From: an uncultured Nitrospira sp.
GTDB taxonomy: Bacteria > Nitrospirota > Nitrospiria > Nitrospirales > Nitrospiraceae
DNA length: 64,000 nt
Direction of reading: 5' to 3'
Assembly: GCA_902500785.1 (NCBI GenBank)
Contig: CABVRW010000005.1
Location: forward strand, 1-64,000
Of the stretch, positions 35,060 to 39,731 are shown one piece after another. A program made the position numbers and the translations under genes. Position 1 is the stretch's first letter; each line of letters starts with the position of its first letter. The notes beneath the pieces were generated by a model. It searched no databases and was not told the origin of the DNA. It saw only the letters and a program-made list of their open reading frames with translations.

Positions 35060-35494
35060 ATGGGAGAATTCAAATCGGGCTTCTTTATGAGCGAGTCAGC
35101 ATGCAATGGTCGGGTGCTCGTGGTCGATGATGAGCCGGATATTCGGAAGGTTGTCCGAATGACCTTGCAGAAGGCCGGGTATGAGGTCATTGAAGCGGAG
35201 AACGGTGAAAAAGCCATCGAGGCTATCAATACCGGAGAAAACCGGCTGCTGCTTGATGTGCTCATCTGCGACATCCGCATGCCGAAGATCAACGGGGTTG
35301 AGGCCATTGCCTACTTTCAGCAGGAATGGCCACGTGTCCCAATCATTGTGCTGACCGGTTTCCCCGACACCGACATGGCCACTTCGTTCTTACGGAGCGG
35401 CGTCGTCGACTACCTGGTGAAACCCGTAGAGGGGGAAAAGCTTCGCGCGGCCGTGGCCAGAGCCATGGAACAGCGAGAGCTTGCCCAACTCTAG
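35060..35494 (+). CDS. Single-domain response regulator (CheY-like)
   Basis: A 144 aa receiver without an output domain. Acidic pair Asp23/Asp24 (VVDDEPD), phospho-acceptor Asp71 in LICDIRMPKINGVE, Thr in VLTGFP and Lys in YLVKP are all present. Start: ATG at 35060 with GAGGAGGGG upstream. The frame extends back to 34877 without similarity. It is the first gene of a four-gene operon with two histidine kinases and a DUF3365 haem protein, so it is the likely phosphotransfer partner of those kinases. Confidence 0.93.
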   Translation: MGEFKSGFFMSESACNGRVLVVDDEPDIRKVVRMTLQKAGYEVIEAENGEKAIEAINTGENRLLLDVLICDIRMPKINGVEAIAYFQQEWPRVPIIVLTGFPDTDMATSFLRSGVVDYLVKPVEGEKLRAAVARAMEQRELAQL

Positions 35495-35626
35495 TGACAC
35501 CCAGGCCGATAGGCAGCTCCGCACCATCCGCGTCGGGGAGGTCCCTCGGGCCTCTCCGACGACAAGGTGCGACCAGGTGAGGGCCATCATCGGCCCAGGC
35601 TTCATGAGACATCACGGAATGCGGCC

Positions 35627-36676
35627 ATGAAACTCTGTGCGACGAAAATTGCCATTATCGGCGCCGGGAAAGGAGGGACCGCACTCCTGGAGCTCCTCCA
35701 TCAAATCCCGGACGTGGAAATCGTCGGGATCACCGACAAGGATCCTGCGGCTCCGGGACTCAAGCGAGCGCGGGATCTGAATGTGCTGGTGGCGCCACGC
35801 GTGCAGGATCTTATCCAAAATCATGGCGTCAATCTCATTATGGATGTCACCGGCGATCCCGCCATGGAACCGCTCATCCACGCCATGAAACGTCCCGGCT
35901 CCGAGGTCCTGAGCGGAGCCGCCACCAGGCTGCTGTGGAAACTGGTCCAGCACCAGTCGAAATTGGAAGCCGAACTGTTCCAGGCCGACAAACTGGCGGG
36001 ATTGGGCTCCTTCGCCGCCGGCATCGCGCACGACATCAACAACCCCCTGCAACTGATTCTCGGACTCGCCGAAAACCTGGAAGAAGAGCAGGACATCACG
36101 GTCGTCCGTGAACAGGCTCGCGACATCACCGAAGCCGTCAAACGCACCAGCGCGATCTGCCGCGACCTGACTCGATACGCGAGGCGCAACGGCGCTCGGG
36201 AAGAGGTCCTGGTCAATCTCAACACAAAACTGGACGAGGCGCTACGAATCGCCCGTTATGCCGTGACGCTCCAGGACGTCACCGTCGTGAAACGTTATGC
36301 CGAAGAGACAATCGTAATGGGGAACCCCGATGAACTTCTTCACGTCTTCGTCAATCTCATCACGAACGCGGTCCAAGCCATCAACGATCGCGGCACCTTG
36401 ACGCTCCAAACCACTGTCGGGCCGGATGGATTGGTCACCGCGTCGGTCAGCGACACGGGATGCGGCATTCCCAAGGAGGCATTCTCGAAAATCTTTGAAC
36501 CGCTCTACACCACCAAGCCACCCGGGAAAGGCACGGGGTTGGGATTGTACAATGTGATGTCCGTGATCTCGAAAATGGAAGGTCACATTTGTGTCGAAAG
36601 CGACGTCGGCGTCGGCACGACCTTCCGCATCGAATTCCCAGAGGTTCAGCCGACCATATCATGCGCGCCCCTATGA
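35627..36676 (+). CDS. Histidine kinase with an N-terminal Rossmann (NAD(P)-binding-like) domain
   Basis: A 349 aa soluble protein. Residues 1-105 read as a dinucleotide-binding fold: KIAIIGAGKGGTALLELL (GxGxxG at 12-17), GITDKDP after strand 2 and IMDVTGDP. This resembles dehydrogenase or CoA-binding modules. Residues about 120-345 are a kinase core: HisKA with phospho-acceptor His135 in GIAHDINNPLQ, N box NLITNAVQAI, DTGCGIP and GKGTGLGLYNVM. There is no membrane segment or PAS domain, so the Rossmann domain is the evident sensor, possibly of NAD(H)/NADP(H) redox state. The start ATG at 35627 begins the fold. Its TGA overlaps the ATG of the next kinase (ATGA). Confidence 0.85.
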   Translation: MKLCATKIAIIGAGKGGTALLELLHQIPDVEIVGITDKDPAAPGLKRARDLNVLVAPRVQDLIQNHGVNLIMDVTGDPAMEPLIHAMKRPGSEVLSGAATRLLWKLVQHQSKLEAELFQADKLAGLGSFAAGIAHDINNPLQLILGLAENLEEEQDITVVREQARDITEAVKRTSAICRDLTRYARRNGAREEVLVNLNTKLDEALRIARYAVTLQDVTVVKRYAEETIVMGNPDELLHVFVNLITNAVQAINDRGTLTLQTTVGPDGLVTASVSDTGCGIPKEAFSKIFEPLYTTKPPGKGTGLGLYNVMSVISKMEGHICVESDVGVGTTFRIEFPEVQPTISCAPL

Positions 36677-39153
36677 CGAGCACATCGCACCCCGTCTCCA
36701 ATGCCCTCGGATGGGGGCTGAAGCGCAAGCTCATCGTGTCCATGCTCATGGTCGGCGTCATCCCTCTCTTGCTCGGACTCGGCATGGCCTTCCTGCAGGG
36801 CTCGAAAGAAATCCAGGTCGTCAGCGGCGAAAGCTTTCAGGCCCTGGCCACGGAAGCAGCCCGCAAATTGGACCTCCTCGTGGCGGAGGAGGTGGCCAGA
36901 ACCTCTCGCATCGCGGTCCACCCCGACATTGTGCGAGCGCTCGAACACCGTCGCGATGCGCTTCACACCTCCGGCAAGAACGCGGCGCAGCCTGCTCTGG
37001 TCCAAGAACGGGCACGCTGGGCCGCGCGAGACCCGGCGGCGGTCAAAGCAATCACGGAGAATCCCACCGCGCTGCTCTTGCAGGGCTTTTACGCCGGCTC
37101 ACAGAGCGAACCTGACCAGCTCCTGCCGCAAGTGGTGCGCGCGGCCACCAAGAAACTGTTCGTGACGGATGTGCAGGGAAACCTCTTTGCCACCCTGACG
37201 ACCACACCCAACTTCGCCCATGCCGACAGTATCTGGTGGAAAGGCGCGTTCAATAAAGGAGTCGGCCAACTCTATATCGAAGACCTGCACTTCGATGAAC
37301 AGGCCAATGCCTATGTCTTCAGCATTTCCCTCCCCATCATGGACAGCCTCCGGTATGAAGTGGTCGGTGTGCTCCATCGGGTCATCGACGCCAAAGAGTT
37401 CTTTTCGCCCTCGACCCACCCCATTCGGTTCGGCAAGACCGGCCATGTGATGCTGGTCGACAGTCGAGGGACGGTCCTCAGCTGCCCCATTCTTCCGACC
37501 GGCGTGCGGCTCTCAGACCTCTCGCTGATCCCACAGGTGACGGCGAGGGAACCGGGCTGGGTGACCGCCGACAGTGACGGGCACGGCGGCCAAGGGACCG
37601 CCATCATCGGATTCGCGCCCCTTCCCGAAACCAGCCGTGCCACGAACGGCGCGCTGGAACAGGGCGGGTGGCACACGTTCGTCTGGCAATCCTCCGACGA
37701 GCTGTTCGCTCCGATCCGGCATCTCATGATGTGGATGCTGATTCTCGCTACCATCGCACTCGGCTTGCTCGCCACCCTGGGCTATTTCGCCGCCAGTCGG
37801 ATCGTAACGCCGGTCCGGCGACTGCAGGAAGCCGCCCGCCTCATCGGGCGAGGAGAATTGCAGGAACCGATCCAGATTCACACGGGAGATGAATTGGAGG
37901 ATCTGGCCATCGAATTCAATCGTATGAATACGCAGCTGGAAGCCGCCTTTGCCGGATTGAACACCCAGGTTGAAGAAAAAACACAGGAAGTGCAGTACCT
38001 CCAAAAATCCACTGATCAGGTGCTCGACGCCGTCCCGACTCCGATCATCATGATCGACCAGAAGGGCCTCATCCAATACATGAATCGCGCGTCACAGGAA
38101 GCCCTCCAGACACAGGACCACAGCTGGTCGGGCCGGCCGCTCTTCGATGTGCTGCCCCTCGATGAGGATCATCTCCAAGCCTTGCGGCGCGACCTGCGGC
38201 TCGTTGAAGGACACAGGCCGGCTGCGCACCCCAACCTCGATCAGGAACCCGCCCAGAAGGAGGCGCGCGACCCGCTCAACCAGACACACATCCAGGCATC
38301 CTCCTCCGCTCGGCCCGAATTGCGGATCGGTTCGCATCTGTATCACTACGAGTGGTTCCCGCTGGAAAGCCGCAGCGGCGCGGGAAAGCGGTTCGGCCTC
38401 GTGCTGCGTGACACCACCGATGAAACCCGGCTGCAAGATCAACTGATCCAAGCCGAAAAATCCGGCAGCCTTGATGTGCTGACCGCCGGCATCGGCCACG
38501 AACTCAACAACCCGCTGTTTGGAATTCTCGGCCTTGGCGAGGCGATCCAGGAAGAGGAAGACCTGGCCCGCGCCAAAGGCTATGCGCAAGATATCGTCGG
38601 GCATGGACGAAAGATGGCGGCCATTATTCGGGACTTCACCGGAGTCGCGACTCGCGAATCGAAGAACCAGCGCGTCCCGGTGGATGTCACCGCCCAATTG
38701 GATCAAGCCCTGGCCATCGTGCAGACCTCGCACGACTGCCTTGGGCTCAACGTCCAGAAACACTACGTGGCGGTGTCGCCGGTGACGGCGCTTCCAGACC
38801 AACTGCGGCTGGCGTTTATCAATGTCCTGACCAATGCCATTCAAGCTATGAGCGGGCGAGGCGACCTGTGGCTGACCACCGACGAACAGGACGACCTGAT
38901 CACCATCAAGATCCGGGACAACGGACCCGGCATTCCCAAGCAACATCTCGGCAAAGTCTTCGATCCGTTCTATACCACCAAGGGACAGGGAGAAGGATCG
39001 GGACTCGGGCTCACCGTCTCGCAGCGGCTGATCAAGAAATTCGGCGGCGAGATTCGGCTGGAGAGTCCGGATGGCCAGGGCACGACCTGCGTCATCACCT
39101 TACCCGCGGACAAGGCCGGGGTACGAAAGGAGGAGCCATGCGTCCCATCCTGA
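36673..39153 (+). CDS. Membrane sensor histidine kinase (Cache-HAMP-PAS-HisKA-HATPase)
   Basis: An 826 aa kinase. TM1 is about 18-40, a large periplasmic Cache-like domain about 45-345 (with FVTDVQGNLFATLTTTPNF and HVMLVDSRGTVL), and TM2 about 352-375, followed by HAMP. A PAS domain follows (about 455-600, TPIIMIDQKGLIQYMNRAS). The kinase core has His609 in GIGHELNNPLFG, NVLTNAIQAM, DNGPGIP and GSGLGLTVSQRL. No receiver domain is attached. Start: ATG at 36673 overlapping the upstream stop. The final codons overlap the start of the DUF3365 gene by 16 nt, so all four operon genes are tightly coupled. Confidence 0.93.
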   Translation: MTSTSHPVSNALGWGLKRKLIVSMLMVGVIPLLLGLGMAFLQGSKEIQVVSGESFQALATEAARKLDLLVAEEVARTSRIAVHPDIVRALEHRRDALHTSGKNAAQPALVQERARWAARDPAAVKAITENPTALLLQGFYAGSQSEPDQLLPQVVRAATKKLFVTDVQGNLFATLTTTPNFAHADSIWWKGAFNKGVGQLYIEDLHFDEQANAYVFSISLPIMDSLRYEVVGVLHRVIDAKEFFSPSTHPIRFGKTGHVMLVDSRGTVLSCPILPTGVRLSDLSLIPQVTAREPGWVTADSDGHGGQGTAIIGFAPLPETSRATNGALEQGGWHTFVWQSSDELFAPIRHLMMWMLILATIALGLLATLGYFAASRIVTPVRRLQEAARLIGRGELQEPIQIHTGDELEDLAIEFNRMNTQLEAAFAGLNTQVEEKTQEVQYLQKSTDQVLDAVPTPIIMIDQKGLIQYMNRASQEALQTQDHSWSGRPLFDVLPLDEDHLQALRRDLRLVEGHRPAAHPNLDQEPAQKEARDPLNQTHIQASSSARPELRIGSHLYHYEWFPLESRSGAGKRFGLVLRDTTDETRLQDQLIQAEKSGSLDVLTAGIGHELNNPLFGILGLGEAIQEEEDLARAKGYAQDIVGHGRKMAAIIRDFTGVATRESKNQRVPVDVTAQLDQALAIVQTSHDCLGLNVQKHYVAVSPVTALPDQLRLAFINVLTNAIQAMSGRGDLWLTTDEQDDLITIKIRDNGPGIPKQHLGKVFDPFYTTKGQGEGSGLGLTVSQRLIKKFGGEIRLESPDGQGTTCVITLPADKAGVRKEEPCVPS

Positions 39154-39731
39154 CATTCGTGCAAGCACGGTCACTGTGGCTCGCGCTGGCCCTGGCCTGC
39201 GCCTCGACCTATTCATCGCAAGCGAAGGATGTCGCACCGCCCACAGGCATTCCTCCGGATAAGGTCGCAGATTTCGTACACGCAGTGCTGGATGCCGACC
39301 GGACGATCTATACGAATCAGGTCGTCAACCGGATGCAGGCTAAAGGGATCGTGTCCGCCACGGAGCATTGGGAACACGAAAATGCCTTGCCGCTTCCCGC
39401 GCAATTTCTTCAACATTCCGGCAAACTCGTCGCCGAATCCGGACGAGGCATTCGTTACCGCCTCATCAGCCTCTGGCCCATCTACCAGCGCAATGCCCCC
39501 GCCACCGACTTAGAACGCAAGGCGCTGGAAAGTTTTGCGCAAACGCCCGATCGTCCCTTCACCGGCATCGTGACCAGCGGCCGCAAACAATACTTTCAGG
39601 CCGTATATTCCGATCGGGCCATATCCGCCGCCTGCGTGAAATGTCACAACAGCCACCCCTTGAGCCCCAAACGAGACTTCGCCCTTCACGACGTGATGGG
39701 CGGGATGACCATTACCATTCCCCTCGACTGA
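39138..39731 (+). CDS. Periplasmic DUF3365 (Tll0287-like) haem protein
   Basis: A 197 aa exported protein. The signal peptide is about 1-29 (hydrophobic WLALALACAS, cleavage near SQA). The mature part is a DUF3365 domain with a PAS-like haem fold and a single c-type haem motif CVKCH (166-170), followed by NSHPLSPKRDF. Family members are proposed redox or gas sensors. Start: ATG at 39138 with AAAGGAGG upstream, 16 nt inside the kinase gene. As the last gene of the operon it is a good candidate for the signal-sensing partner of the periplasmic Cache domain. Confidence 0.88.
   Translation: MRPILTFVQARSLWLALALACASTYSSQAKDVAPPTGIPPDKVADFVHAVLDADRTIYTNQVVNRMQAKGIVSATEHWEHENALPLPAQFLQHSGKLVAESGRGIRYRLISLWPIYQRNAPATDLERKALESFAQTPDRPFTGIVTSGRKQYFQAVYSDRAISAACVKCHNSHPLSPKRDFALHDVMGGMTITIPLD

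Follow-up and report, generated by a model that had tools for sequence, protein, structure and literature searches.

A candidate Rex-like Rossmann module and a haem protein in a conserved four-gene two-component operon of Nitrospira

In the present study, four + strand genes at 35060-39731 of a 64,000-nt window from a Nitrospira genome, the closest named relatives of which include Ca. N. defluvii, were found by ORF and Pfam analyses to encode a lone receiver, a soluble histidine kinase with an N-terminal Rossmann domain, a Cache-HAMP-PAS histidine kinase, and a DUF3365 haem protein, which confirms the gene content described in an earlier note on this sequence. Our preferred reading, to which we assign a probability of approximately 0.6, is a branched two-component system with a Rex-like NAD(H) module inside, a haem/dCache pair outside, and a shared receiver, the module being reused on other outputs. 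On either side of the membrane, the operon would read the redox or nitrogen-oxide state. On the cytoplasmic side, the Rossmann module of the soluble kinase may bind NAD(H), and its last helix (97-124), predicted to run unbroken towards the DHp helices, would carry a ligand-dependent change that alters autokinase activity; the module would be a Rex-like sensor in which the moving C-terminal helix drives a kinase rather than DNA binding. On the outer side, the small c-type haem protein would signal to the second kinase through the dCache domain of the latter, and both kinases would act on the lone receiver, which presumably works via a partner protein. The same module appears to have been fused repeatedly to NarX-type kinases, sigma-54 activators, hybrid kinases, diguanylate cyclases, and a chemoreceptor.

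Organization and conservation of the operon

The first gene (35060-35494, + strand) encodes the receiver (144 aa; PF00072, E 8.8e-30), which keeps the acidic pair, phospho-Asp, and Lys of receivers in the VDDE, DIRMP, and KP motifs of the alignment and consists, according to Pfam, of a receiver domain only, with no DNA-binding or enzymatic output domain. The second (35627-36676, + strand) encodes the soluble kinase of 349 aa (HisKA 7.7e-11, HATPase_c 3.8e-24), the phospho-acceptor of which is His135 in GIAHDINNP; this residue is invariant in 15 homologues, as are N243/N247, D276xG278xG280, and G302/G304/G306 of the N, G1, and G2 boxes of HATPase_c. The third (36661-39153, + strand; the start may be 36673) was assigned by ORF and Pfam analyses to a membrane histidine kinase of 830 aa with the architecture dCache_1-HAMP-PAS-HisKA-HATPase_c, and both kinases of the operon exceed the Pfam cut-offs for HisKA and HATPase_c that define the HisKA type. 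The fourth (39138-39731, + strand) encodes a periplasmic sCache_heme/Tll0287-like (DUF3365) protein of 197 aa (PF11845, 4.3e-19), with a CVKCH motif at 39633-39647.

The ATGA and 16-nt overlaps by which the earlier note had coupled all four genes hold for the two kinase genes (ATGA, or 16 nt if the upstream ATG is used) and for the Cache kinase and haem protein genes (16 nt); an overlap of the receiver gene with its kinase gene is ruled out by a gap of 132 nt. This gap contains a GC-rich stem-loop with an 11-bp stem and no U-tract (35531-35561, + strand), the pairing of which is conserved: over 16 Nitrospira sequences, the stem is 95% paired, versus 43-59% in slid controls, and three pairs are changed on both sides in a compensatory manner. 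The hairpin matched no Rfam family, and terminator and promoter scans returned nothing above chance; a role in RNA processing or attenuation would fit.

The order of receiver, Rossmann kinase, Cache kinase, and haem protein is present in 15/15 Nitrospira loci free of truncation by contig ends, and BolA/glutaredoxin and bactofilin genes adjoin the Nitrospira operons as far as the contigs extend. Beyond the genus, where kinase identity is as low as about 48%, the complete set was found in 13 of the 15 loci with a HisKA-type kinase, which belong to other genera and families. The Cache kinase is present in order in 14 of these 15, and the two incomplete loci either lack the haem gene (L123) or consist of the receiver and Rossmann kinase only (L121). 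Because of its recurrence in both sets of loci, the four-gene order is conserved far beyond chance, as the earlier note had proposed to check. Of the four products, the receiver varies least, with 96-100% identity within the genus versus 84-97% for the kinases. Two Bacteroidota loci returned by the related-locus scan, which mostly reached the genus Nitrospira, were rejected as kinase-core matches with no module.

The Rossmann module and its predicted ligand

Regarding the N-terminal module of the soluble kinase (residues 1-107, 35627-35947, + strand; GAGKGG loop at 12-17, acidic D37), residues 1-105 match the Rossmann families DapB_N and GFO_IDH_MocA weakly in Pfam, which holds no family describing the module itself, and several other members exceed the cut-off for NAD_binding_3, DapB_N, or GFO_IDH_MocA. 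An AF2 domain model based on a 43-row alignment shows a Rossmann fold of the NAD-binding type (pLDDT 88.4, pTM 0.81); a structure prediction of residues 1-105 had been proposed in the earlier note. When the module profile was compared with the PDB, the best sequence match was Rex 5zz5 (E 1.9e-4), followed by NAD-dependent (acylating) acetaldehyde dehydrogenases. Foldseek returned NAD(P)-dependent enzymes with E values down to 2e-5 and also listed Rex 5zz5, and the VIA structure search returned NAD(P)-dependent enzymes with Z up to 12.4; Rex was not among the VIA matches listed, which says nothing against kinship. Both the fold and the glycine-rich loop place the module in the NAD(P)-binding Rossmann superfamily.

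Over 43 divergent copies, G12 is retained in 43, G14 in 41, G17 in 39, and W104 in 41, and position 37 is acidic in every one (39 D, 4 E), such that the loop and the acidic residue are near-invariant down to about 26% identity. Since the acidic residue with which strand 2 ends is conserved, the sequence favours NAD(H) rather than NADP(H) as the predicted ligand, and NADP(H) was set aside as the first choice; the idea in the earlier note of a sensor reading NAD(P)(H) is supported by the predicted fold and narrowed by this residue. The module shares with Rex (PDB 5zz5-7, PMC8836258) the Rossmann domain, the GAGxxG loop, and the equivalent of Asp115, with which D37 aligns in the profile-PDB alignment. 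In Rex, the ADP part of NAD is hydrogen-bonded by Asp115, which binds it together with Asn92, Ile93, and Lys120, and Tyr100 of the T. maritima protein stacks on the nicotinamide from the other subunit (PMC8836258). The predicted binding of NAD(H) by the module is well supported by the sequence and the predicted fold. Discrimination between NAD+ and NADH in the manner of Rex is not supported by the alignment, in which Tyr100 corresponds to Leu and Lys120 to Ala, and would therefore need another mechanism.

Another ligand may be considered, such as NADP(H), a CoA ester, a nucleotide sugar, or a substrate-type intermediate of aldehyde or sugar dehydrogenases. Domains of acylating acetaldehyde dehydrogenase and of Gfo/Idh/MocA sugar dehydrogenases are among the best matches, and one module member has a weak CoA_binding match. 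Moreover, position 15 of the module is presumably equivalent to the A12K site of an inositol dehydrogenase. It is Lys or Arg in 36/43 copies, which resembles A12K, described as NADP-favouring in structure entry titles. We nevertheless regard a different ligand as quite improbable, because D/E37 in 43/43 copies is the classic signature of NAD over NADP, and because the second, substrate-binding domain of acetaldehyde and sugar dehydrogenases is absent.

The NAD domains of Gfo/Idh/MocA proteins, DapB, and homoserine and acetaldehyde dehydrogenases resemble the module in fold and motif; unlike these enzymes, it carries no catalytic or substrate domain and is fused to signalling outputs. In the operon kinase, HisKA follows directly at about residue 127, with no catalytic C-terminal substrate domain in between, and a catalytic role was rejected on this basis. 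The same lack of a catalytic domain, together with the variation at K15 and the different residue at the Rex tyrosine position, might indicate a ligand-free, domesticated fold for dimerization or partner docking, in which case the kinase itself would be no sensor; a copy inserted within a receiver domain (L120, see below) also hints at protein-protein use. A fold without a ligand appears unlikely to us, however, given the near-invariance of the dinucleotide loop and acidic residue and the retention of the N-terminal input position on many unrelated outputs.

In the preferred reading of an NAD(H) sensor, the last helix of the module may be the signal linker, by analogy with Rex, the C-terminal helix of which is the part moving on NADH binding (PMC8836258). 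This helix spans residues 98-117 in the domain model and, at lower confidence, 97-124 in the full-length AF2 model, which is weak around residues 101-190 (block pLDDT 42-61) and was used for helix layout only; it leads towards the DHp helices. Unlike Rex, the kinase has no winged-helix DNA-binding domain (PF06971 absent in Pfam). KinA of B. subtilis is likewise a histidine kinase proposed as an NAD+/NADH sensor, but uses a PAS domain; its binding of NAD+ has been reported and disputed, and the effect of NAD(H) was not reproduced (PMC5552956). As far as we found, this disputed case is the only precedent for direct NAD sensing by a kinase, and the open-access literature (subscription journals were outside the scope) yielded no direct description of this module or of a Rossmann-type kinase sensor. 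The prediction of NAD(H) sensing is testable with soluble recombinant domains.

Distribution of the module among signalling proteins

Beyond what the earlier note had envisaged, the module is common to many signalling outputs. It occurs in 29/29 Nitrospira genomes searched, with two matches in 27 and one in 2 draft assemblies, the additional copy being a HisKA_3 (NarX-type) kinase that adjoins a NarL-type regulator gene. In the genome under study, this second Rossmann kinase (L028:3676-5455, - strand) overlaps the NarL-type regulator and lies beside nrdR and glyA. Across Nitrospirota, the module was detected in 246/396 genomes and 97/169 genera, with up to eight matches per genome. Each copy examined, where its frame could be traced, stands at the front of a signalling protein, whether a HisKA or HisKA_3 kinase, a sigma-54 activator with HTH_8, a GAF-PAS hybrid kinase, or a GAF-GGDEF or GAF-GGDEF-EAL protein. 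At least seven output types were distinguished. In this respect the module also differs from Rex, its outputs being a kinase, an AAA+ activator, a cyclase, or a chemoreceptor.

Outside the phylum, one of 99 Bacteroidota genomes carries the module, on a sigma-54 activator. A plasmid collection gave no match with the module of the operon kinase as the query and one true relative when a sigma-54-type module served as the query, namely, a 260-aa fusion to a soluble MCP signalling domain in Acetoanaerobium (Bacillota; L128:3998-4780), which in turn recovered no further relatives from that collection. The Acetoanaerobium record is 2.6 Mb in size and is filed as a plasmid. In a tree of 45 modules, grouping is largely by output, and the 9 output labels require 8 changes, which is the minimum; the fusions therefore appear, on this tree, to be few and old rather than continual. 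A different arrangement was noted at L120:4938-5810 (- strand), where a single ORF has, behind a membrane helix, the module inserted between the beta4 and beta5 regions of a receiver; the same Nitrospirota genome also has a complete operon (L119).

The Rex DNA-binding domain exceeded the cut-off in 3/396 Nitrospirota genomes and 0/60 Nitrospiraceae in a search that was positive for 7/14 control genomes; this scarcity fits, but does not prove, a role for the module as a substitute for Rex. Taken together, these results suggest a portable, general cytosolic input domain through which cells could monitor the redox state of their interior, and which is very frequent in Nitrospirota, a phylum with almost no Rex. 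The bolder proposition is that the module is an NAD(H)-sensing, kinase-linked counterpart of Rex feeding histidine kinases, sigma-54 activators, diguanylate cyclases, and chemoreceptors, that it is the main NAD redox sensor of the largely Rex-less Nitrospirota, and that it is joined here by an extracytoplasmic haem/Cache branch converging on one receiver; we give this slightly less than an even chance. Neither of the outcomes that the earlier note regarded as fatal, a Rossmann part with no usable pocket or genes that do not co-occur, was found, and its redox idea is strengthened and widened. If true, a broad class of metabolic sensor would be gained in the form of a dedicated Rossmann input domain common to kinases, enhancer-binding proteins, c-di-GMP enzymes, and a chemoreceptor. 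Such a domain would also be a candidate route coupling electron supply to regulation in nitrite-oxidizing Nitrospira, which matter for wastewater treatment and the nitrogen cycle.

The haem branch and the receiver

Under its present name, sCache_heme, the DUF3365/Tll0287 family is regarded as a Cache domain that carries c-type haem covalently; of its members, one associated with signalling binds NO tightly, and one that stands alone and has an axial Cys looks redox-like (PMC12889525). The product of the fourth gene belongs to this family by PF11845 and by its CXXCH motif, which is present in 17/17 orthologues, and resembles the stand-alone Cache-type haem proteins; it differs from them in the lack of the axial Cys and in being coupled within an operon to a dCache kinase. 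The mature proteins of the 17 aligned orthologues contain no Cys besides CXXCH and therefore do not fit the Cys/His axial ligation of the redox-type Tll0287 subgroup, such that the protein, stand-alone by architecture, is placed by its sequence outside that subgroup. A PDB sequence search with the haem protein alone returned nothing useful. The earlier note had proposed a reading of the haem redox state; the haem protein is borne out, and the redox reading is uncertain. The axial Cys of Tll0287 is missing, which makes a nitric oxide role no less plausible than a redox role, and either cue in the periplasm would be plausible for a nitrite oxidizer.

From the gene order, the most likely partner of the haem protein is the dCache kinase encoded by the overlapping gene. 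A considerable chance, short of even, must be given to a periplasmic electron carrier or NO scavenger that is not the sensor partner of this kinase, since redox roles have been assigned to stand-alone sCache_heme proteins (PMC12889525) and the family has 10 matches in this genome (e.g. L100-L107). The translational overlap with the kinase gene, which is kept in most loci, and the absence of the axial Cys found in the redox-type P. putida and Tll0287 proteins argue against such a role. One of the family matches adjoins another histidine kinase, on contig C58.

The DHp domains of the two operon kinases are 40% identical, whereas almost every other kinase compared from this genome has an identity of 30% or less to the Cache kinase in this domain; the exception, at 41%, is on contig C2. 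This similarity, the conserved operon, and the single receiver favour a shared partner, and both kinases probably act on the lone receiver. The two kinases may instead act on separate receivers, the operon being a chance-stable cluster of two systems, as might be supposed from the equal DHp similarity of the contig C2 kinase, the hairpin and gap between the receiver and kinase genes, and the locus retaining the receiver and Rossmann kinase only. We consider this rather unlikely because the four-gene order is kept with its overlaps across genera and families and because the cluster contains no second receiver. Convergence on the one receiver, as preferred here, admits cross-talk with a third kinase or wider partner sharing, in view of the DHp similarity of the contig C2 kinase (C2:107897-108607, L149). 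This is a multi-PAS/GAF kinase with a DHp domain that resembles those of both operon kinases about as much as these two resemble one another, and, judging from this resemblance, it is a possible third input to the same receiver.
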